From: Byssothecium circinans
Lineage: Eukaryota > Ascomycota > Dothideomycetes > Pleosporales > Massarinaceae
Assembly: GCA_010015675.1 (NCBI GenBank)
Contig: ML977018.1
Coordinates: 91,725 to 112,538 of the forward strand
DNA: 20,814 nucleotides
Direction: 5' to 3'
Shown one piece after another: positions 1 through 20,741 of the stretch. How positions within the stretch are numbered: position 1 is the stretch's first letter; each line of letters opens with the position of its first letter. The translations under genes and the position numbers were made by a program. The notes beneath the pieces were generated by a model. It saw only the letters and a list, made by a program, of their open reading frames with translations, was not told the origin of the DNA and searched no databases.

Positions 1-163
1 GAGTAACTTTATTCTATACTAATATAGCTTACTAAGAAATTAGAAATCCTAGAATATTCTTTTTTAACCTTTTAGATCTATATTATATATATCTGTATTT
101 AAAATATCAGCTTAATAGCTCTAATATTTAAATTGTTATTAAAGGTTGAATATTTGATTTTCC
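1..163. other. Left flank outside the outer element, no gene
   Basis: AT-rich sequence with stops in all frames and no recognisable family. It lies outside the 9-bp duplication and is probably host DNA or an older decayed repeat. Confidence 0.5.
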
Positions 164-172
164 TTGCCAAGC
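164..172. repeat. Left target-site duplication, TTGCCAAGC
   Basis: The 9-mer TTGCCAAGC immediately precedes the left terminal inverted repeat. It recurs in the same orientation directly after the right one at 20742..20750. A direct repeat abutting inverted termini is the signature of a target duplication made at insertion, so both ends of the outer element are probably present. Confidence 0.8.
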
Positions 173-231
173 TTTTGAGCGGTTCGGTGGTGTGGGCGGT
201 TCGGTGGTGCTTTACGTTATAATTATATATT
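173..231 (+). repeat. Left terminal inverted repeat of the outer element
   Basis: Begins TTTTGAGCGGTTCGG and matches the reverse complement of 20683..20741 with a few substitutions through TGGTGCTTTACGTT and a following AT stretch. It is GC-rich in an otherwise AT-rich window. It contains two copies of GCGGTTCGGTGGTG (179..192 and 196..209) spaced 17 bp apart, possibly binding sites for the recombinase. The length of about 59 bp is by eye. Confidence 0.8.
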
Positions 232-241
232 TAATACTATA

Positions 242-540
242 AGACGCCCACCTAGAGCTATTAGAAGGGAAGGCCATAATAACCTACCCTATGAATGGTA
301 CTTTAATAACATATATCAAGTACACCTCTTAGAGAAACTTAGGAAAGGTTTCCTACGATGAGACGAATAACTAATAGAGCATGGGTGCTTATTATAGATA
401 GCATACTATGATAATAGCTGCTACATACACCTATCTAATAAACAAGGATTAGGCTAGTTTCTAAAGAAACTATAAGGGTTAAAAAACTAGGATGCTACTA
501 GGGATAGGGTTACACTGGTAAGAGCATTCCTATAATAACC
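242..540 (+). pseudogene. Gypsy gag C-terminal remnant with decayed zinc knuckle
   Basis: Frame 2 reads as a basic segment followed by a Glu-His-Gly-Cys-rich stretch around 375..425. This resembles the CCHC knuckle region of fungal Gypsy gag, with Cys positions apparently changed to Tyr or lost. The frame is interrupted by TAG, TAA and TGA codons. The pol frame that follows is frame 1, so a shift or decay separates them. Identification rests mainly on position before the protease. Confidence 0.45.
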
Positions 541-2430
541 TTATATAACATACGATACCTAGATCTACTAGTTCATTAATTAAAGGTAGAGGTGCGCGTA
601 TATAGATGTAGGCTTACAGCACTTATAGATAGTAGAGCTGCATAGATAATTATCTCCCTATAAGTAGTTAAGAAATATAACATACTATATCAAGATAAGG
701 AACGTCTGATATAAGTGGTATTAGCTAACGATAGACTAATATCCTACGGCAATAGATTCTTAAGGTTGGAAACCTAAGAAGTGTCATTCTACGTACTTAG
801 AATTAAGGACATAACATCCCTTAACATCATAGATCTTAGTAAAGAAGACATGTTAATTAGTTATAATTAGCTTAGGAAGCATAATCCTACTATTAATTAG
901 TAGAAAGGTATGATGTTTAGCTAAGAACTAGCGTGTAAGGTTGCTAAAACATGCTATAGAAGATTAAGCCTAATAATCTAGAGCTTACCTAGTTAGACTA
1001 GATAGATTAGCAAGATATCACCTTATAAGATTAAGAGAATCTATAAGAAGGTCCCTTTACAGATAGGAGTTATCTAGATATAGAGAGTTACGCCTATAAA
1101 GGATGAACCCTAGCTAATGATACTACTAGAATATAAGGAGTTTTAAGACCTATTTAAGGAAATAAAGGAAACCGCATTACTAGATCACTAGGATTAGGAT
1201 TATGAGATTCACCTAGAAGAAGGCGCGAAGCTACGCCTAGGACTAATATATCTACTCACTCTAGATTAGTAGTTGGAACTGCGGGAGTACATTAAAAAAA
1301 ACTTAAAGTAAGGATATATATAAGAGAGTATTAGCCTAATAGCTTCACTAATTCTCTTTATCCTAAAGAAGAATAAAAAGCTATAACTCTATGTAGACTA
1401 CAGATAGCTTAACTATGTTATAAGGAAGAACTAATACCCTCTTCCTCTAATCTAGGAACTCATAGACCGCCTCTAAGAAGTTAGGTAGATCACGAAATTT
1501 AATATATAAGATAGATTCTATTAAATACAAATAGCTAAGGGCTACAAATAGCTAATAGCTTTTAAGACCTAGTATAGTCTATATAAATACACAGTTATGC
1601 CCTTTAGATTAACGAACGCGCCTGCAACATTTCAGGCACTAGTCAACAGAGCACTTCATGAATACTTAGATATCTTTGTAACTACGTACCTAGATGATAT
1701 ACTAGTGTATACCTTAGGAACGCTTAAGGATTATATTAAACATATTAGAAAGGTGCTTAGGAAGCTTAGGGAGTATTAATTGCCCCTATAGCTAGAGAAA
1801 TGCGAATTCCACGTTAAGGAGACGGATTACTTAGGATTTATTATCTCACGAGATAGCATTACTATAGACCTGAAGAAAGTCAAAACTATAAAGGAATAGC
1901 TAAAACCTAAGATAGTTAAGGACGTGTAATCCTTCTTAAGATTCGCTAACTTCTACTAAAAGTTTATTTAGGGATATTTAAAGACTACAGCACCTCTTAT
2001 AGAGATTACTAAGAAAGAAAAGGGATTCTAATAAGGATAAGAGTAGTAAAAGGCTTTTAAAAAGATAAAGGAACTATTCCTATTAGCCCCTATACTATAG
2101 ATGCATAATCTAGAACGTCTACTATAAGTAGAGATAGATACATTAGACTACGCCTTAGGAGTAATCCTTTTATAGTAAGGTGATGATAGAAAGTAGAGAC
2201 TAGTATTCTACTACTCTTAGAAGTTTTTAGGAGTAGAACTTAACTACGACGTTCATGATAAGGAACTACTAGTAATAGTAGATGCCTTTAAATAATAGCG
2301 AGCCTAATTAGTAGGCGCTAAATACTAGGTAGAGGTATATTTAGATTACTAGAACCTGATAAGTTTCATAATAACTAAGAAACTTAACTAAGGACAGGTC
2401 AGATAGGCTAAGTTAATGGTAGATTATTTT
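541..2430 (+). pseudogene. pol: Gypsy pol, first half: protease, reverse transcriptase, RNase H
   Basis: Frame 1 stays readable throughout apart from in-frame TAG/TAA at Gln/Trp positions. The aspartic protease motif near 613..640 reads Ala-Leu-Ile-Asp-Ser-Arg-Ala where the family has Asp-Ser-Gly, a G-to-A change. RT follows with YVDYRQLN near 1390, the palm segment PFRLTNAPATFQ from about 1600, and the catalytic YLDD at 1687..1698. RNase H follows with the family block DKELLVIVDAF near 2260..2290. The frame ends inside the C-terminal part of RNase H (AKLMVDY), where the Helitron inverted repeat begins. The rest of RNase H resumes at 11897 with NGAADALS. Function in life was cDNA synthesis; it is now a RIP-inactivated pseudogene. 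Confidence 0.9.
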
Positions 2431-2439
2431 GCGGAGCGA
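2428..2439 (+). repeat. Left 12-bp inverted repeat of the inner element
   Basis: TTTGCGGAGCGA is the exact reverse complement of 11886..11897. It falls where the Gypsy RNase H reading frame stops, so it marks, or lies very near, the Helitron left end. Confidence 0.7.
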
Positions 2440-2873
2440 GGAACGAGCGTAGCAAATCTATAATCCAAATCGCGCCTGAGGGCTTCCAAAAAATCGCATT
2501 TTGACGTACTTCTACCTATTGAATTTCATTGCTGATTTTTCTATATATGCTAAAAACTGTACCCTTGATAGTTCTACTAATAGCAGCCTATATTTAATTC
2601 GTTATAATAGGTATGAGTAGATAAAACAGTGTTTTTTAAATGATGTTCTTCGGAATCACGACTAATACGCGTGTCGCGTGTCCTATATTAGGCAGTGAAA
2701 CAGGGGCTCAGGGTCTAAAAGCTGCTTGCGCCACTTTATCTACCAGCCACTGCATGCGGCAACATGACTAAACCCTATTTTATAAAGAAAAAATTCGCTA
2801 TACTATAGGCCTAATACCTCGCAACACTACCTAATACTACTTCCCTCCATCCACGTACCCTTACACGTTATTA
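2440..2873 (+). promoter_or_regulatory. Helitron left region, upstream of the helicase gene
   Basis: No reading frame of note. It directly precedes the first plausible Met codon of the helicase gene and presumably holds its promoter. A pair of heptamer motifs (CCTAATAC at about 2806 and 2829) lies near the 3' end. Confidence 0.4.
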
Positions 2874-5800
2874 TGGATGTTCCACACTGCAATCGCTACA
2901 ACGCACCTCTTATGCCTGGCGTTGATTAATTTTGTAATAATAAATAGAAGAAGAACTGTCAGGCTTGCCTTACAGTTACTCAGAGTTATAAACGGCGAGC
3001 GAATACGTTAGAGCACAAAGCTGCACCCCCTACAAAGTATCACGCAACGCTAACGTCAGACTCTAGTCCTTTATCTAGTATTCTCCGTACTCTAACGCTA
3101 GTCTAACCTTAATCTATACTAACGTCTACGCCGCATGCGCTAACCGCACTAGGGACTCCACTTGAGCAGCAGCTTCTTCGTGCGGCTGGTATTAGTCTTA
3201 GTATCAGGCTACTATCTTAGTCTTTAAATATGTTACTATTACCTTACCTATCCTAACTTCCCCCATTAGCACTACTAAGCGCTATAACTCCCATTAAACC
3301 CCTATCATTGTTATAAACGCTTTCTAGTTAACTATTACCATGGATGGCCGCGATACATTCTACATCACAGCCGTGGTATTCATAACAGCAAGGGGAGGGT
3401 GTTTTATGGAATACCCCTCCATCTTTAGTATAATCACGCGATACTTGCTCTAGTATTGGTCCTAGTATTAGTCGTACAACCTATATAGTAGCTAAGTCTA
3501 AAGAACATGTAGTTAATGAGTTGGATGATGGTATAGTAGCAGCTGAGTCTTAAGAACATGTGGTTAATGAGTTTAATGATAGTGTAGATAGAGAGATGCT
3601 TATAGAGGTGGAAGAGAATATATATGACTTCCCTCTAGAAGAGCCCCTATTACGAATTTAGGATGATAGTTCTTATCTTTCTAATCCTACATTATCTAAT
3701 TAAGATAAAACGTATATCTCTACGTTTTATAACGCACTCAAGAAAGAAGAGATAGAGATGTGTATAATTTGCAACCGTTATTAGTTTCACCTAAACGTTC
3801 GCCGTGGGGAATGTACTACCTATTTAACTAATCGCGTTAAACATAGTACTAAAGAGGATTAGGTGCCTATATTTAGTGCTGTAAACAATATAGATCTAGG
3901 TGTAATATCTAACCTCCCTTCTCTTACTAATGTTAAGGAGATGCTTATTGCCTAGGTTCACTGTTTTATATAGATATGTTAGCATCGTGGGCAGTAGTAT
4001 AAGTATAGAGGGCATATATGTCATTTCACCATTAATGTAGCTAGGGTATTTTTAAGGCTTCCTGTCCTTCTATCTGAGCTTGATATTATTATCCTTAAAC
4101 TACTACATTTAGATGAGGACGACCACGCTTCGGTTGAACGTTAATTCAAGAAGAGTTAGAAAGTAAGGCGCACTGTAGTGTTGCGTTGGCTGTAATAGTT
4201 AAAGGCACATCACTCTAGATACAGCAATATTGTTATTGATGATAAGGCTATTCAAGAACTCCCTATTAATGGGTATGTAGACGATTAATTTACTATGCTT
4301 TAGCATGGGGATATAGATATTAGGCTGGGGGATTATCCTAATACGCAAGAGCTAGTGTCGCCATCCTATACGCTAGACTATTCACCCCTACTATCTATAC
4401 CTGCTATGACCGCCCATATACTAGATAGGTCACCACCTAATACTAGGCCTAATACTAGCGCGGATTCCTACTACGATGGTAGCTTGATTTTTGATGAGGA
4501 CGATAATGATGATAATGGAGCTGACACGACCATGGTTCCTAATATTGTTCCTAATGTTAGCGAATTTAAGACTTTACGTCGTTAAATCTAATTAAGACCT
4601 TCCTACCTTACTATGGGCTTAGTGCAAAGGACACCTATTTCTAAATATAGTAATTAGGAAAAGATCCTTAGTCTTGCATTTCCTACCTTGTATCTAAATG
4701 GAATTAGTAACTATATGCAACTAAAGATGTAGGAGGTTGCATATACAGACTATGTTTAGCACATAATAAGCTATAAGGATGGACGTTTTACTTATTACTC
4801 ACGTTTCCATTTTGCTACCTTTAATACGCTTCTCCGCAGGCAAACTACTGCAAAGGTGGGTTTCTTTATAAGGAAGACACTAGACGGCGCTTCTATGATG
4901 GCTAAGGATATTCAAGCTCAGTTTAACAGCGCTGATGGTGGGTAGAGTTTAATTAACGCTATAGTGTAGTTCTCTACCTCTATTTAAGGTTCTTATGCGT
5001 ATTAGAAAGTAGAGGGTACAAACCTAAAGGCTATGGTACGTGTGGTCTGCCTAATACCTAGCTAATACCCTTATTGTTAATATCTAACTTTTATTAATAG
5101 GTTTATTAGCTGTGATGTCCTTATCTATTTATCACATACTCTGCTGCGGATTACCATTAGGCTAATCTCATGAGATTTATGGGAGAGGAGGCCTTTGCTG
5201 AGTAGTAGACTGTAACTAATGCACGTTAAGTAAGGCTGGCATAGGATTTCATACGCGATAACCCACATATTATTGCTTACTAGTTCTACCGTCGATTTAA
5301 ACTATTTAAGAAGCATGTTATAACGCCTAAGTTTAACCTTGTTAACTTCTAGCATCATTACGAGTGGTAGGGCCGTGGTAGTACTTATAACTATAGCCTA
5401 TACTACTATAGAGATGCACCTTATCCTGATTAGTATTTAGCTTAGAATGCTACTAAGCTTGAGAAGCGACGATTAGCAAAGTATTAGGGCTATTACATTA
5501 GCACTGTTCATCCCAACCCACACAAGGCTACTCTAGAGCATTCATATAGCTCCCCCTTATCTCTTGCATTTGATCAGATGGTTTTTGACTTTCATGAACT
5601 TGCTACTATCTTGACTAAGTGCTACATGCATGTATGTCATCTTAGTTACTGCTAAAGGAAAAATAAGAAGATAGGTAAGATAGTCTATCACTTTAAGGCT
5701 TCCTAGCCACGTATAGCTAATCCCTACTTTACTAAATTAGCTAGGAAGTCTTTTTACCGTCTCCACGCTTAACGGAATCATCCACTTCTAAACGCGTACT

Positions 5801-8286
5801 GTCGAACTCTAGTATTAGGCTAGCGGGCTAATACTAATATATAGCCCTGCACTAGTACTATAGGTGTTGTTTAATATGTTAGTCTATATGTTAGCAAGGC
5901 AGAGCAGCAGACGACGTTGTTTAAGGATATGGCTACTGAGATACTACCTTATATCTAGTCTGAGAATGCTATATTCAAGTTTGTAGCAAAGTTAATGAAC
6001 AAATTGGCGGGCTAGAGGGACTATAGCGCTTAGGAAGTTTGCTACATCCTCTTTAATCTGCCCCTTACGGATTATAGTCGTACTATTCTTAACGTTAACC
6101 TTCATTGTGAGGAGGATTAGCCTAAGACGTACGTCTTTCAAGCTAATCATCAAGTTGATGATGAAGTGTTTAAGGAAGATACACCTTAGTTTACTAAGGG
6201 CCGTTCTATGCTAGTAAAATACAAGGAGAGGCCTCCATCACTTGAAGCCGTATCCTATTTAGACTACCTTCTTCATTACGACCATGCAAAGAATTGAGTT
6301 AGGCCCTAGGCTAGGCCTAGGATTTTGAAGTTTTACCCTCTATACTCTCCTGAGTTAGATAGGGAAGACTTCTCTCGCGTCAAGCTTATGCTACATCATC
6401 CATTTCAATAGGTATTAGATGTAAGGACCTTTGCCGGCTAGGAGTACCAGTTATTCTTGCAAGCCTATTGGAACTGCCTGTTGGTATGCAATCACCCTTT
6501 ACCTGATAGCTTTGGAGAGGTGTTACCTAAAAATGAGGAAGAAGATCTAGATTAGGAAGACGTAGATTTAGCGGATGAGTCATTATAGAATAAGCTTGCT
6601 AGTCGTCTCCCTAGTGCTGATGGTGTTATTATTGATAAGGATAACCTAGGCAGTTAGCTAGTTGATCTAGAGAAGGATTAGAACGTACCTAAGCATAAGG
6701 ATAGTTACGGCCTTAATGCACGTTAATATTAGAAGGAGATAAAGATAGCTCATCTAGTTAATTACGCTACTAGACCTAATACCTCACCTAATACCCTTTA
6801 GTCTAAATAGTGGCTACTATTCGATCTCATCATCAATCATTATCAAGCCTACCTAGATGGGAATAGGCTAGAGCAGCTTCTTCTTAACCTTAATGGCTAG
6901 GGTGGTACTAGAAAGACGTACGCTATTAAGGTTATAACCTCTACTATAGATAGTATTGCGAGGGCTTTAGGGAAGAAATTACCTATTATATGGTGCGCAC
7001 TAACTGGAGTAGCCACTTTTCTTATTTCAGGAAAGACTATCCACTCTACCTTCCGCATACTAATTCAACCTCCTGGTGGTGTGCTTCCACCTCTTACTCT
7101 AGTAGCGTTAGCTTAGACCTAAGCGCTATTTACTAATGTTTATTACCTTATTATAGATGAGAAGTCTATGGTAGGGCTAACAACACTAGCGTGGTTAGAT
7201 ATAAGGTGCCATGAGATCTTTCTAGCACAGGCTAGGTATCCTTTTAGCAGTTTAAATATTATCCTAGCTAGTGATTTTTACCAGTTACCCCCTATCGCGA
7301 GAAGGCCTATGTTTGATACTACAAAGAGCCACAGCTCTTCAGATACAGCTAGTGCGGCGCTATATAAACTATTTACTAGAACTATTGTTCTAGATGTAGT
7401 TATGCGCTAGCAGGGTTCTGAATAGGCTTCCTTCCATGATACTCTTACACGTATCCGTGAGGAGAAGCCTAATATCCATGACTAGCTTCTCCTTATGAAA
7501 CGCTGCAGCGTTGAGCTTAGCGAGGTAGAACGGAACTCCTTTAATTCTACCTTGCGTATATGCGCAAAGAGGATAGAGGTAGCTACTATTAATCATAACT
7601 GCCTCTAGGACTCTGGCCAGCCTATCCTTATTTTATAGGCCACACATAATAGTTAAGATCAAGAGAAGGTGTCTACTAAGGATGCGGGGAATCTCCATAA
7701 CTAGCTCCCTATATTTATTGGTGCCCGGGTTATGCTACTTAACAATATCTAGATAGAGCGTGGTTTAGTTAATAGGGCTATAGGGGTTATTAATAATATC
7801 CTTTAGCAGCCTAATACCTAGGATTGTCGCAAGGCTACACTAAAGGCAGTATTAGTCGCTATAGATAAGTATAATGGGCTATGTCTTTATAGCCTTCTAG
7901 ATGGTACAAAGGTTATTCTAGTGTTTCCTCTTATTTAGGAATTTACTGTTAATTAGAGTATGCATGTGCGTATTTAATTCCCTATTACACTTGCCTAGGC
8001 TATTACAGTTCATAAATCCTAGGGTTTAAGTGTGGATAAGGCTATGATCACAGTTAGTAGGGAGTGAGATCACTACCCTAGCTTAATGTACGTTGCGCTT
8101 TCAAGGGTTAAGACTGTTGATGGTTTAATGTTTAAGGATGTATTTTCCTATTAGTGGTTAAAGCAAAAGAGAAGCAAGGTATCAGAGATATGAGAGCGGG
8201 ATATAAGGCGTAGGGCGCGTCATCACGTTATAGTGCAGCAGACTATTTTCTAGGTCTAATACCTAGACCAATACCACTGTCATTGA
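2874..8286 (+). pseudogene. Helitron DUF6570/Rep/PIF1 helicase
   Basis: The N-terminus at 2874 carries Cys-rich CxxC-like pairs and a basic stretch typical of fungal Helitron proteins. A DUF6570-type zinc region with CIIC follows near 3758..3770. The Helitron_like_N segment is at about 4640..5030, and SAAD, conserved in the family, is near 5148. The Rep active-site region at 5377..5400 reads GSTYNYSL where the family has His-x-His, so both catalytic His codons look converted to Tyr. The conserved YVSLYVSKAE Tyr pair lies at about 5875..5900. The PIF1 helicase begins at about 6800: Walker A near 6890..6922 reads GxGGTRKT (Lys and Thr kept, one Gly now Arg), Walker B IIDEKSMVG is near 7150, the DFYQLPP-type motif near 7273, and TVHKSQG and YVALSRVK lie at about 8008..8110. 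At least one intron, near 5040..5125, is needed to keep frame; others near 3187 and 3452 are likely. The protein would nick and unwind DNA for rolling-circle transposition. TAG and TAA at Gln codons throughout make this a RIP pseudogene. Intron borders and the stop (TGA 8284..8286) are provisional. Confidence 0.85.
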
Positions 8287-8378
8287 GAGGTTTTGTAAGG
8301 GTAGTTTCCTATAATATAAGCATTCCTATGAAAGTTTCCCTAATCTATCTAGATAGATAGAGCACCTAATACCACAGC
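8287..8378. other. Convergent gap between helicase gene and unknown gene
   Basis: About 90 bp between the 3' ends of two convergent genes. It holds a heptamer pair at 8366..8386, overlapping the proposed stop of the minus-strand gene. Confidence 0.4.
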
Positions 8379-10071
8379 CTAATACTCCGTGACTATATCC
8401 TAATCCCTAGAGCATATAGTCTCTGTGTCTGTACCATCTACTAAATACAGACTTAGATTAACGTCACCCTTATCGCCTAGCCTCTTAAGCTCTATGAATT
8501 TCGTAATGTTAGGCATCTTCACACTGTTATTATAGCCTTGATAGGGAACCTCTAGCTTAATACCTTCCATTGCATCTTCTTCCATTTGCACACCTTCTAT
8601 TGGTTCGCCTTGGGAAGTATTCTCTATAGGAAGTTCTGCAATGATATAGTTAAGTAGATCTGCAGCATATCCTGCATTCTCACCCTGTACCTTAGGGAAA
8701 TGTGCGCTATAGTCTTTAATAGTGCGTAGATTATACGTACTAGGAAGCTTGCATGCTTTACCATCGCGAAAGAGTTGGATAGTAGAGTCTGCATAATCCC
8801 TATCACGCTGTGCTTAGTAGATTAGAGAGAGTAGCACGCGTTATTGTTAGGGGAATAGCATAGGGAATAGCGGAATAGGCATCTTTGACTTAGTGTCAAC
8901 GCTAATCAGGTATCTATAAGGCACTTCTAACTTCTATAGTGCTGACCTTACAGCGATGATCTGTTATAGTTAGCTTATGCCTAATACCCTAACTAATACC
9001 ACACTTACTTAACCCCATCGCATAGGCAGCTTTAATTTAGTCTTCTTGAATACCTTTTAAGTAGCACTAGCCTATTAATGGTTAGTTCTAGACTAATACT
9101 AGGTCTAATACCCTACTCACCTATCCTAAACGTACTGGCTTCTTTCTAGCCACTAGAAGAGCGACTTGGTTATTGAGTGTTAGGTTAAGCCACTAGATAT
9201 AGCGCTGCTTAGTATTAGCCATGGTATTAGGTTAGTTACGTTGCACTTATAATAAACATGCCTTATGGCATGCGTAGAATGAATCCCTTCAGCCCTTGAT
9301 AATAGAGAATCCTTAACTTTTCCACCATAATATCAAGCTCTCTATTCTAGTATCTCTTCACCTGTAGCTAGTAGCTAAGCTCTATCCATTCTTCCCTCTC
9401 TTTATTGCTTAGGTTAGGCACTATTATATCAAATTTTTCTTTTTTCTCCTTGATGTCCATCATCTTTTTATCCGCTTTGCCTGCGTTAGATTTGCCCTTT
9501 TTACTTGACTTACTACTCTCTACACTCTCATTAATAGTAGACGAGGCAGCGTTAATAATATACTAAGGTAGCATGAACTCATCTTCTAGTGCCCAGACCT
9601 TTTCTTAAGGCTTAAAGACCAATCTCATAGTTTTGTAGTTAGATTCTGGCTTTCTAGTGCGTGCCATGGCTAGCTATATCTAGAGCAGATTCTAACTCTC
9701 CCTATGTATTATTAGTTATACCTAATACTAGACTAATACTCTTCTCATACCTAGCCTTAAGCGCTGCATTGCGACTCTGAATTTAAAGCATGTCCTCAAG
9801 TTGCTTACGCTCATTTTCATCTGTAGCGCTATCAAGCAGGTGCTAAATACGTGGCAAGAACTTCTTTATCTAGAAAGTAGAGCACGCCTTTACTAAGTTA
9901 GTATATAATTATTTAGGTATAGGGGGGTTGTTATACCTTATTATTGGCGTTTTTTCCCTTTTGAATCATGAAGTCTTCGCCTTGCTTGCTTGCGTGAAGT
10001 TTGTTATTTTTAATGGTGCTTGCATTTGATGAGTATGCATTAGTAGCCTTCACCTTCTTCTGGTCTGCCAT
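8379..10071 (-). pseudogene. Multi-exon gene of unknown function carried by the Helitron
   Basis: Not recognised. Starting at ATG 10071, one frame continues across proposed introns with no disruptions except TAG/TAA at likely Gln codons. Exon 1 (10071..9937) begins MADQKKVKA and is Lys/Asn-rich. Intron 9936..9888 has an exact TACTAAC branch site. Exon 2 (9887..9740) is charged and probably helical. Intron 9739..9702 follows, then an exon with a Ser/Lys-rich linker and a long Glu/Lys-rich helical stretch. Introns near 9235..9205 (borders do not keep phase cleanly), about 9133..9085 (GTGAGT donor) and about 9015..8968 (GTAAGT donor) come next. The last exon ends with ELKRLGDKGDV and an acidic tail. 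About 500 residues, mostly hydrophilic, with no signal peptide or membrane segment. Four of the five introns carry the double-heptamer motif. It is divergent from the H3-like gene, sharing 10072..10887. A DNA- or chromatin-associated role would be a guess. The stop TAG at 8381..8379 may itself be a RIP product. Confidence 0.6.
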
Positions 10072-10887
10072 TGCAGCGAGAGGGCTTAGCAGGATGTATT
10101 AGGTAGGTATTAGGCGTTATTTAGTAGTGGGGCAAAGTTACGTATAGTGCGTAGACGTTATATAAGGAGTATATAGGAAGTAGTGTTAAGTGGCAAATTT
10201 TTAGTAATAAGTTTATTTATAGTTACACGAAATTGAAAGTAGGGCTAGGTAGTAATCACGGGAAATTATCACTAGCCTATCGTGTGCGTTGAATGCGCCC
10301 AACACTTTACAACATGATTCTGGCATGAGCGTGTGCAGCTCAGTTAGCTGCATAAGTACATACTAGAATCATAGTATTAGGTTAGGTATTAGTCTCTCTT
10401 TAGAAGCCATTTCCCATCTTTATACGTAGTTTTCTTGCTAACGTAATGTTTTCTCTCTTATTTCACTTCTCTTTACGCCTTTACCTTTACTGCTTACCTT
10501 CACTGCTTACCCTTACCAGCCACCTTTACGTTGCCTTCTTACTTCTCGCGCTTACCTACCACCCCGCACTTTAACAACTCTCAATCTTTGCGATTTTACT
10601 GTCTTTGTGGTCGCAAAGCTTTGCAGCTGTAGTATAGCTATAACTAAAGTATTAGGCTTAGTATTAGCCTTTCTATGTATATACTCCCCTACAATTTCCC
10701 CTTCTATTACCTACTAATTTCAACTTCCTTGCGTACTATCACTATTCCTATTTCTTACTTTTACTATTCTCATTTCTCACTTTCACTTTTACTGTTAACG
10801 TTATTAGTTTTCCATCTATTTTCTAACTAAAAAGTAGTTAGTTTACGTCTATCTTATTTTCTTTTATACACCTTACAACATACCATC
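10072..10887. promoter_or_regulatory. Shared upstream region of two divergent Helitron genes
   Basis: No coding frame. The H3-proximal half is pyrimidine-rich (about 10425..10860), as in many fungal core promoters, with a TATATAC at about 10677. Double-heptamer copies occur at about 10097, 10375 and 10650. The arrangement would allow joint expression of the unknown gene and the H3-like gene, or these could be 5' UTR introns. Confidence 0.45.
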
Positions 10888-11634
10888 ATGGCCGCTAAGA
10901 AGAATTGAGGCAAGCTGCCTGCAAAGGCTCCTCATGGCAGAGCTGGCAAGGGTAATAGCGCCTAAGGTAGGCTAGGTATTAGTCTTAGTATTAGCCACAT
11001 GTTAACTGTGTCTAGCTTTAGGTCCTCGCAAGAAAGGCTAGAAGAAGCTTCCTACCAATACTAGCACGAACCCATATGAGGGTCGTAAGAAGAAGGGAGG
11101 GTCGCCGCCGCTAACACGGAAGCTAATAAGCTACGCCATGCAGAAGGAGCGTGCTCCCATCTATAAAGGCCCTAGCAAGGGAGGCCCTCGCATTAGGCGT
11201 CGTAAGCCTAGTAGTAAGTTTTTGACCTATATTACTATAGCTAGACTAATACTAGTATTAGCCTTTGCTCTAGTAGAGATCTGTTTCTACTAGAAGACTC
11301 TAGGTGACTTAATTCTAGTAGCGCCATTTAGGAGATTAGTTCGCGAGGTGCTGTAGAATAATCAAGAGGGAAATGGTGACCTTGTGTCCTATTTCTAGTC
11401 TAGGGCTTTAGACGCCTTATAGGCTACTACTAAGGCCTTCCTAGTGGACATCTTGCAAGGTATTAGTCTAATTTATATAGTATTAGCCTCTACTAATAAT
11501 AGTGCCTAGTTACAAACCTTAGTGCTATCCATGGGAAGCACGTCACTATTCAAGCCAAGGATGTTAAGTATGTTATTAGTGTTGGCAAGATTCTTGCTCC
11601 ATATAGCAAGATTCTGTAGGACTTGCCCGCCTAA
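10888..11634 (+). pseudogene. Divergent histone H3-fold protein, CenH3-like features
   Basis: Four exons (10888..10966, 11016..11213, 11262..11459, 11510..11634) join in one frame through introns of 49, 48 and 50 nt with GT/AG ends; each intron holds the double-heptamer motif. The product is about 199 residues. A Lys/Arg/Gly-rich tail of about 92 residues has no ARTKQ start. Then comes a complete histone fold: TFALVEI and YQKT match the H3 alpha-N region, APFRRLVREV matches LPFQRLVREI, FQSRALDALQ and AFLVDIL match alpha 2, and TNLSAIHGKHVTI with AKDV matches the alpha 2-3 region. Between REV and FQS there are 14 residues against 9 in canonical H3, a loop 1 extension of the kind typical of centromeric H3. 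H3 packages DNA with H4 in the nucleosome. TGA at codon 7 and TAA/TAG at Gln codons show RIP damage. The N-terminus and the TAA stop are the weakest points. It could instead be a host H3 variant captured once by this Helitron. Confidence 0.85.
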
Positions 11635-11885
11635 TGCTGTATCTTACTATGCTACCTATCTCCTACATGTCAAGCTTAAGGGTATTAGGCGGTATGAGGC
11701 ATGACTACTAGCGTTAAATGGATATTATCTGCAAAGTATAGCTTTCTATACTACTCAATTTGAGGAGTTATAATGGACTGGAACACGGAAGGTTTCTAGT
11801 ATACTAGCTAGGATAGGTAGCTCAACTATCTGAATAAAAAAGCTTTATTGCGTAACTACTCTTCATCTCTACCCTAAGTGATAAA
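11635..11885 (+). other. 3' region of the H3-like gene and Helitron right end
   Basis: No gene seen. AATAAA at 11833..11838 could serve as a polyadenylation signal. It also forms a weak stem with TTTATT (11844..11849). The stem is about 50 bp from the right inverted repeat, further than the 3' hairpin of classical Helitrons. Confidence 0.4.
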
Positions 11886-11897
11886 TCGCTCCGCAAA
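11886..11897 (-). repeat. Right 12-bp inverted repeat of the inner element
   Basis: TCGCTCCGCAAA, exact reverse complement of 2428..2439. Gypsy RNase H coding resumes within about 40 bp after it. Confidence 0.7.
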
Positions 11898-13530
11898 TTC
11901 TAATTCCCGTTTACGAAAATTGGAAGGATCTTAACTTCAAAGTATACCATCACCTAGAATTACTGAACGGAGCTGCAGACGCTCTTAGCCAAAGATATAA
12001 CCTTTAGGAAATAGACAGACCTATTACACATGACGCGGTCCTATAGAAGGACTATAATAGAAGTATAAGCTATAATTAACCCTAATTAACTAAGGTAGCT
12101 AGGATTAATTATTAGGGACTAGAAGTATATGACTAAGCAGATTACAATCGTTTGACCCTAGGATAGAGGGTAGAATATAACTTAGTAAACTATCTAAGGG
12201 CGGGACCACCCTAAGATAAGAAATAATAGATTATACTATGAGAGGCTTACATACTAACCCTAATATGAAAGCTACATGAGTCTAAAGAATACGGACACCC
12301 TAAGATTAATGAAATAGTTTAATGGATCTTAAATAAGTACTTAATCCCTAAAGTATGAAAAGCAGTTTAGAACGCGATAGGCAACTGTTTAGCATGTTCT
12401 AAGAATAAGCCTAAGAGACATAAGCCCTATAGATTACTCTAATCACTTAAACTACCCGCACGCCTATGGATTAGTGTTATAATAGACTTTATTATAAAGC
12501 TCCCAAAATTATTAGAACCTAGATTAGCACGGCTATGCGACTTAATATTAGTAATCATAGACCAATTAACTAAAGCATTAATATTCGTACCTATGGAAGA
12601 AATAGTTATAGCTAAAGAAATAGCTTATAAAGTAACTAAGGCACTCATTAGTTAATACAGTATGCTAGAATAGTTCATTATTAATCGTAGAACACTATTC
12701 ACCTCTAAATATTAGAGTACATTCTTAGTAAAGCTTAGAGTTAATAAAAAGCTTTTAACTAGCTTTTACCTATAGATAGATAGTTAGATGGAATGAACGA
12801 ACTAGATACTAGAACAGTATCTAAGGATATACGCTAATAAGCTATAGGATAACTAGGTTAAACTTCTACTAATAGCTTAACTAGCCTATAATAGTATAAG
12901 ATCCTTAATAACAGGATACTTACTACACTACGTGAATTACGGATATAAGCTAACTACTTATCAAAATCCTAAGGACGTTAAGAGTCTTTCAGCTAGAGCT
13001 GATGATAAGGCATGACTACTTCACGAATTACATGATAAATTAAGCTAATAAATTGCTTAACGGAACCTTACAATAGCTAAATTAGTAAATAAGAAAAGGC
13101 TTAAGGGACTAACCCTTAAAAAGGGGGATAAAGTTTTCCTATCATGAAAAAATTTAAAAACTAAATAGCCATGCGATAAGTTAGATAACCTCTAAATAGG
13201 ACCATTCTAGATCCTAGAGGTTAAGAGACTAGTAACGTATAGATTAGAACTCCCTAGAAGTATGCGCATATACCCTATCTTCTATAAATCACTCCTTAAA
13301 CTAGCACTACTAGACGCTAAAGTTAAGACAAGGATTAAGCTTAAGGATGAAGACTATAAGGTTAAGGAGATTAAAGACCTATAAAAGTTTAAGCGTTAGT
13401 AGAAGTACTTAGTTAAATAAAAGGACTAGCTAACTAGCTAGAACACTTAAGAACTAATATAGAATCTTATAAGCTATAAGGATTTAGTAAAGAACTATTA
13501 CTAGTAGTATCTAAAGGTAGTAGTTCTAAG
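11897..13530 (+). pseudogene. pol: Gypsy pol, second half: RNase H end, integrase, chromodomain
   Basis: Frame 2 is continuous from 11897 apart from TAG/TAA at Gln codons. NGAADALS (about 11970) closes RNase H. The integrase zinc-binding HHCC is visible: HESKEYGHP near 12270 and CLACSKNK near 12390. The catalytic core follows, with Asp in VIIDFI near 12480. The second Asp site reads INRRTLF instead of Asp-Arg-Gly (about 12683). The Glu block DSQMEQTNQ is near 12780. A GPFQILEV segment (about 13200) leads to a chromodomain (DEDYKVKEI about 13346; YLVKQKDQLTSQNTQE about 13405..13455), which targets chromovirus integration to chromatin marks. About 12 residues just after the Helitron junction do not match the family, so the junction sequence is not clean. 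Confidence 0.9.
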
Positions 13531-20682: not shown

Positions 20683-20741
20683 AAATATAATTATTAACGT
20701 AAAGCACCACCAAACCGCCTACCCCACCGAACCGCCCAAAA
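20683..20741 (-). repeat. Right terminal inverted repeat of the outer element
   Basis: The reverse complement begins TTTTGGGCGGTTCGG and matches 173..231. The two internal GCGGTTCGG-type units are at 20722..20735 and 20705..20718 with the same 17-bp spacing as on the left. One unit has CG changed to TG/CA. Confidence 0.8.

Follow-up and report, generated by a model that had tools for sequence, protein, structure and literature searches.

A histone H3-type gene resident in a Helitron2-type transposon family of Byssothecium circinans

The genome of Byssothecium circinans contains a Helitron family of which a histone H3-type gene is almost certainly a standing part. The gene lies with the element at 26 places or more, and both its membership of the family and its mobility are firm. 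The copy described here is found in a stretch of 20,814 nucleotides (hereafter the window), corresponding to C42:91725-112538 of the 48.4 Mb and 109 contigs of the genome that was searched. Taken as a whole, the explanation we favour on balance is that a B. circinans Helitron2-type transposon took up an H3-type gene, now resident, whose product would alter chromatin to the transposon's favour.

The element occupies positions 2427-11931 of the window on the plus strand (9,505 bp), as delimited by ends common to its copies and by an empty site. It is inserted between the A and the T of a repeated gypsy-like element, a name that rests on RT- and integrase-like frames recognised by eye and not by profile. 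When the window copy is cut out and its two flanks are joined (2426 to 11932), the resulting sequence recurs as a colinear empty site at at least 40 other places, a count taken from the best 40 of 158 candidates scored (41 rows, two of them representing one place), and the two empty sites checked base by base were gap-free with no target duplication. The ends of the copies are sharp and common to them, the element beginning with TTTTGCGGAGCGAGG after an A and ending with AAGGATCT before TA, and an A precedes the element in all 19 of the plus-strand 5' junctions visible at the border, four of which belong to diverged relatives. The 5' arm of an asymmetric terminal inverted repeat (TTTGCGGAGCGA; 2428-2439, element positions 2-13) matches exactly over 12 bp the 3' arm at 11886-11897, which is set 34 nt inside the 3' end. 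Compared with shuffled sequences, the terminal hairpins were unexceptional (z of 0.07 for an 8-bp stem near the 3' end and 1.13 at the 5' end). Based on the 12-bp asymmetric inverted repeat, the insertion between A and T without target duplication and the Rep/PIF1 gene, the element is of the Helitron2 type. Further out in the window, a 47-nt inverted repeat, 91% complementary (173-219 and 20695-20741, with 20,475 nt between the arms), might mark the ends of a larger TIR element enclosing both the gypsy-like element and the Helitron.

The RepHel gene (2873-8253, plus strand) encodes a zinc-finger-like N-terminus, recognised by eye, followed by Helitron_like_N and a PIF1 helicase; it is damaged by RIP and its exons are partly delineated, with the ATG placed on the sequence and the stop codon by eye. 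On ORFs of the least damaged copy, C62, which has the same length as the window copy (9,505 bp), Pfam returned Helitron_like_N (PF14214, 39.7 bits) and PIF1 (PF05970, 42.9 bits). The joined helicase pieces found 147 homologues at E<=1e-10; the named organisms among the 120 listed were mostly fungal, as were the best relatives bearing organism names, and a B. circinans helicase, P0009, was 100% identical to C62 over residues 383-592. Two further helicases, P0007 and P0008, showed 57% and 53% identity. The RepHel of C62 is also broken (10 X in a join of 1,050 residues), and no autonomous copy was seen among the copies found. Elsewhere in the genome, C47:21406-24081 holds a sister helicase with many stops, its pieces 53-66% identical to P0009, which represents a further Helitron family.

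In several of these features the element resembles FoHeli1-5 of Fusarium oxysporum, which in the sections of PMC5148889 drawn on here are described as Helitron2-type, with an asymmetric inverted repeat (12 bp in FoHeli1/2) whose 3' arm lies ~20-40 bp inside the end, with Rep and helicase, and with sharp empty sites, FoHeli3-5 being 9-11 kb long. The B. circinans element shares with them the 12-bp asymmetric repeat with an inset 3' arm, Rep and helicase, sharp empty sites and, at 9,505 bp, a similar length, its helicase being 34-35% identical to the listed F. oxysporum proteins. What sets the window Helitron apart from the FoHeli elements as described there is its H3-type gene, together with another gene that belongs to no recognised family.

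The H3-like gene consists of four exons on the plus strand: 10888-10966, encoding a basic tail; 11016-11213, the rest of the tail; 11262-11459, αN, α1, loop 1 and most of α2; and 11510-11634, the end of α2, α3 and a new C-terminus. Together they comprise 600 nt, or 199 codons and a stop. The introns are short, at 49 nt (10967-11015), 48 nt (11214-11261) and 50 nt (11460-11509), and their splice sites are kept across the copies, with GT present in 26/27, 27/27 and 26/26 and AG in 27/27, 27/27 and 26/26 for introns 1 to 3. The first-pass annotation had proposed four exons and three introns giving one frame; the exons and introns held, but the frame is not open, as the splice product of the window copy contains eight internal stops. 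Two of the motifs it had read as YQKT and FQSRALDALQ are in fact Y-stop-KT and F-stop-SRALDAL-stop, TAG having been taken as Q. Its exon model was also adjusted by moving the start of exon 3 to 11262, which adds an H3-typical PGTFAL.EI stretch. In the C62 copy (L018), exons 2-4 are open and the sole stop is at codon 4, so that a later start is needed; the annotated model begins further in.

The search for other copies placed the gene firmly within the family. Its DNA occurs at 27 places, the 26 others being 91-95% identical to the window copy, and the whole 811-bp query was covered in 24 of the 27. The 292 bp between the gene and the 3' end of the element gave 30 matches, 26 full-length and four short, and every one of the 26 full-length 3' ends found in the genome adjoins a copy of the gene; the 27th gene copy runs into the end of its contig. 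The gene is therefore neither a chance neighbour nor a flanking host insertion, and its location in the Helitron, downstream of the helicase, is as previously proposed: ends, empty site and other copies agree. That further copies of the Helitron would carry the gene was a check named beforehand, and the 26 full-length 3' ends bear it out. Both ends lie on one contig in 19 copies, 9.4-11.7 kb apart, 11 of them spanning 9,495-9,520 bp from one outer match end to the other. For this pairing 25 of the 40 5'-end rows were used and 15 short, partial or diverged rows dropped; six of the 25 5' ends and seven of the 26 3' ends had no partner. Three of these 5' ends (C14:1081904, C30 and C23:107105) have N over all or most of the expected gene site, and the others are C59, which has the gene but stops at the edge of its contig, C99 and C69:45192.

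Short non-autonomous relatives without the gene also exist, such as a ~1-kb example at C33:228557-229564 (L063) that matches the Helitron only over 308 bp at the 5' end and 48 bp at the 3' end. Within 29.7 kb on C17, a diverged relative (~79% identical) aligns with nothing beyond element positions 1-3201, and beside the C47 sister helicase the expected 1.8-kb gene site had no match to the element or to its proteins (best 22 residues, E 0.48); neither result tells the age of the gene's residence.

All 27 gene copies contain stop codons, from 1 to 19 per copy, although the counts for L033 (an indel), L031 (match starting inside exon 1) and L035 (off the contig) are not comparable with the rest; all three carry stops. 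When the other 26 copies were compared with C62, 1,006 of 1,916 differing cells were C>T and 841 were G>A, together 1,847 (96%), and 762 of the C>T changes in CpA plus 593 of the G>A changes in TpG made 1,355. This pattern of damage is RIP, signs of which extend across the window (TA/AT of 1.32 to 2.01 per kb block). RIP also accounts for the stops TAG and TAA seen in the copies, and, as almost all differences among copies stem from it, these differences are nearly uninformative on selection.

The histone nature of the product was examined through P0001, a protein found with the spliced product as query and named in its source 'histone-fold-containing protein [Byssothecium circinans]'. From KKGQKKL to its own end, a run of 168 residues, it does not differ from the C62 translation. 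Against the Pfam Histone family (PF00125), P0001 scored 88.4 bits (E=5.5e-25; curated cut-off 26.4), and even the window copy, with X at its stops and an approximate first splice model, scored 50.5 bits (E=3.1e-13). In the PDB, P0001 matched 176 sequences at E<=0.001, the best 60 of which were all named H3, headed by 7e9c (85.2 bits) and 4kud (85.1 bits), the latter a yeast nucleosome by its title. The H3 fold claimed by the first-pass annotation is thus upheld by the family profile and by the best matches among solved structures. An AlphaFold2 model (7 sequences) gave helices at residues 65-78, 84-98, 111-138, 146-154 and 160-167 with a mean pLDDT of 58.5, compared with 53.4 in an earlier structure model, and Foldseek searches with the model returned nucleosome structures first (best E 3.7e-6), with 40-51% identity in the best 50 rows. 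From this identity and the usual chain letters, we infer that the matched chains are those of H3. With model confidence this modest, the structure supports the H3 fold, short of proof.

Like canonical H3, the product has αN, α1, α2 and α3 in order, with RLVRE, FQS.A..ALQ and AIH.KRVTI, and the H3-specific αN is present as PGTFALAEIRFYQK in the predicted helix at 65-78. Unlike canonical H3, it is borne by a transposon, its loop 1 is five residues longer and VGKILAPYSKILQDLPA replaces RLRGERG at the C-terminus. Residues R52, K56, R69, R72, R83, H113, K115, R116, K122 and D123 are kept, and R49, R53, R63, K64, K79, C110, L126, R128, R129, R131 and R134 are changed; we take H113, K115, R116 and D123 to belong to the H3-H3' contact, and the lost R128, R129, R131 and R134 to contact DNA. 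The conserved N-terminal tail of the ARTKQTARKS type is absent from the product, whose tail alignment is unreliable, and ARKS occurs neither in P0001 nor in the 199-residue model. A tail of this kind makes the product an H3-type variant, and assignment as a canonical H3 fails. As read from its sequence, the predicted protein keeps the H3 fold pattern and the H3-H3' contact residues and differs in the tail, in several DNA-contact arginines, in the C-terminus and in a longer loop 1.

Across the fold, identity of the product is 51% with the host H3 (47/93), 51% with the host CenH3 (49/96) and 42-58% with five other proteins found. Of the 67 positions common to host H3 and CenH3, the product retains 44; of the 26 at which the two differ, it has the H3 residue at 3 and the CenH3 residue at 4. 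The difference between shared and differing positions is pronounced (Fisher, P 2e-6 for H3 and 1.7e-5 for CenH3). Under neutral decay the shared positions would have changed like the rest; the protein was therefore under constraint during much of its evolution, and we consider the gene very probably coding and constrained over its divergence. In affinity the predicted product sides with neither paralogue. A test for purifying selection had been proposed, and it succeeded in part: the amino-acid pattern shows constraint, but copies that differ nearly always by RIP do not place that constraint in the Helitron rather than in a host gene before capture.

Among 522 candidates from the protein collection, none at E<=0.001 was a close relative from another named species. 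Besides P0001, five unnamed ENA proteins reach this threshold; AIHGKRVTIQAKD-like words are common to the five because candidates were picked by shared 5-residue words. Copies broken by RIP would be absent from protein collections, and absence of the gene elsewhere is therefore weakly shown. A virus-borne source was also considered and rejected, as no relative was found in viral_contigs, where four stretches matched a pattern and none was confirmed.

The course of events that we favour begins with capture of an H3-type gene by the Helitron, after which it became a standing gene of the element. Most likely the product would have been made, paired with host H4 and placed in nucleosomes, and the resulting chromatin would be without the usual H3 tail marks, there being no ARKS context for methylation of K9 or K27. 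Heterochromatin would then be weakened on new copies or elsewhere, which would aid the element in escaping silencing. Host RIP afterwards damaged the copies, one of them only lightly. The almost intact copy is consistent with the suggestion of the first-pass annotation that the element may have encoded its own nucleosome component; that the product works as a histone altering chromatin in the element's favour is, judged from its sequence, a tentative proposal. Against the whole account stand the damage to all copies and the later start and broken RepHel of C62. If the product helped the element to escape silencing, it failed to prevent RIP, and nucleosomes built with its altered C-terminus might be unstable. 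The lack of a close relative in a named second species counts against long-term service to the element.

The last point is also what would be expected of a recent capture, and it bears on the strongest alternative, in which an active Helitron picked up a host H3 variant that had diverged beforehand, and amplified it along with itself as a passenger that did not serve the element. Helitrons are known to capture genes (PMC5148889, in the portion relied on here), all 27 copies found are broken, and the constraint could predate capture, in the host gene. Such a history would be less easily reconciled with a gene that stands beside all 26 of the full-length 3' ends, or with the lack of an unlinked host copy of the variant among the listed matches, which, with the best candidates scored, all fall in the family save for host histone-fold genes. 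We regard passive carriage as possible but somewhat doubtful.

Much less probable is a CenH3 carried by the element, which could seed or seek centromeres. The product does have a divergent tail and a longer loop 1, both like those of CenH3/CENP-A, and it matches host CenH3 at 49 of 96 fold positions; unlike a CenH3, it has the host CenH3 residue at only 4 of the 26 telling positions, next to 3 of 26 for H3, and it is equally close to host H3 (47/93). All of the best 60 of its 176 PDB matches are named H3, and within the genome the host H3 scores 80.3 bits and the host CenH3 58.1 bits, a comparison that introns may affect. With no affinity to CenH3 on this count, for which only the host sequences were used, a CenH3 origin was rejected. 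Slightly less probable again is a role in packaging a circular DNA intermediate or in rolling-circle replication, rather than in resident chromatin. The Helitron2-like FoHeli elements likely move through a circular intermediate, according to the sections of PMC5148889 used here, and fewer DNA-contact residues could suit transient packaging. A host H3 gene lying by chance beside the Helitron, or inserted in one copy of it, has next to no probability and is refuted by the copy search: of the 27 copies all but one adjoin the 3' end, and the element shows exact ends and an empty site.

An unexpected feature of the element is the motif GTATTAG (CTAATAC on the other strand), which occurs 43 times in the window Helitron (2427-11931) and seven times in the 11.3 kb outside it. 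Markov expectation for the element is 3.7 to 6.9, with a maximum of 17 (200 runs, order 3). The spaced pair GTATTAG-N5-GTATTAG has 276 matches in the genome versus one for the reversed control, and of the first 100 of these places 88 are in copies of the Helitron family, three in the diverged relative on C17 and nine in two 12-bp tandem arrays. These arrays of the 12-mer GTATTAGAACTA, at C3:590273-590351 and C7:131977-132019, repeat this motif every 12 bp and lie outside the Helitron copies.

In the C62 copy (L066), 22 of 41 motif sites are paired on one strand at a spacing of 11-13 bp. In its two fully modelled genes no motif falls in 2,025 bp of exon and 14 fall in 394 bp of intron (P 8e-12), a contrast that is not fully independent because the exon borders were placed manually while the intron DNA was visible. 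Two motifs each are found in all three H3-like introns (10976 and 10988; CTAATAC at 11246 with GTATTAG at 11255; 11460 and 11480) and in four of the five introns of the second gene. Of the remaining C62 sites, 14 are in 1.7 kb of intergenic DNA, and 13 of the 41 are in the 5.4-kb helicase region, where exon and intron are unsplit and some sites are apparently coding. In the window, two plus-strand pairs (10374/10386 and 10649/10661, within 10370-10670) lie between the divergent H3-like and minus-strand genes. As pairs are also intergenic, introner copies, which would be whole introns, are not the simplest account of them.

The minus-strand gene (8400-10071) was drawn by hand on the C62 copy with six exons (10071-9937, 9869-9740, 9702-9251, 9204-9121, 9071-9009 and 8960-8400) and 474 codons, 18 of which are stops in the window copy. 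Scoring 7,997 candidates against its product brought up no homologue at E<=0.01, Pfam likewise gave no family at E<=5, and no VANC-like gene was recognised in the Helitron. The closest described pattern to the motif is that of VANDAL21 in Arabidopsis, where, in the part of PMC5735166 drawn on, VANC21 binds YAGTATTAY, which is dense in non-coding DNA, introns included. GTATTAG is likewise family-specific, dense and mainly non-coding, with introns included; unlike the VANDAL21 motif, for which binding of VANC21 is shown there, it is a candidate, some sites are apparently coding and orientation is mixed, and the likeness may be chance. From the presence of GTATTAG, often paired at 11-13 bp, in seven of the eight delineated introns and at gene borders, one could propose that the Helitron has its own chromatin-identity system. 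An H3-type histone without the host tail marks would be joined to an address code of GTATTAG. A protein of the element itself, perhaps the one encoded on the minus strand, would read this code and aim the variant histone or another anti-silencing activity at the element's own copies, much as VANC does for VANDAL21 but with a histone as effector. We think this extension unlikely.

The first-pass annotation had known of no description of a core histone as Helitron cargo, and within the open-access literature searched this stood: among the titles listed, none pointed to a histone as cargo of a transposon or Helitron. The word 'histone' is absent from the main text of PMC5148889 and PMC4289320, and histone cargo is not mentioned in the consulted portion of PMC10799480. 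The cargo is real and, within these searches, of a type not described before, whereas the element that bears it is of a known type. The nearest precedents, as set out in the relevant parts of PMC12730594, are TET/JBP dioxygenases carried by fungal DNA transposons, some of them Helitrons (P. graminis, Pezizales), and thought to counter silencing, and SET methyltransferases carried by HarbingerS and MuDR of Phytophthora. The H3-type gene is like the TET/JBP genes in being cargo of a fungal mobile element that bears on DNA or chromatin modification. It is unlike them, as they are presented in those parts, in that a structural histone in one family takes the place of a DNA-acting enzyme in many element lineages.

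Enzymes that alter DNA methylation or histone marks are known as transposon cargo, and a core histone in the standing gene set would be a different strategy, that of supplying the nucleosome itself. In this family one can ask concretely if mobile DNA is able to determine the state of its own chromatin, and the motif arrays are a starting point for learning how that state might be directed to the element. More broadly, histone genes can be mobile, which bears on the origin of odd histone variants.
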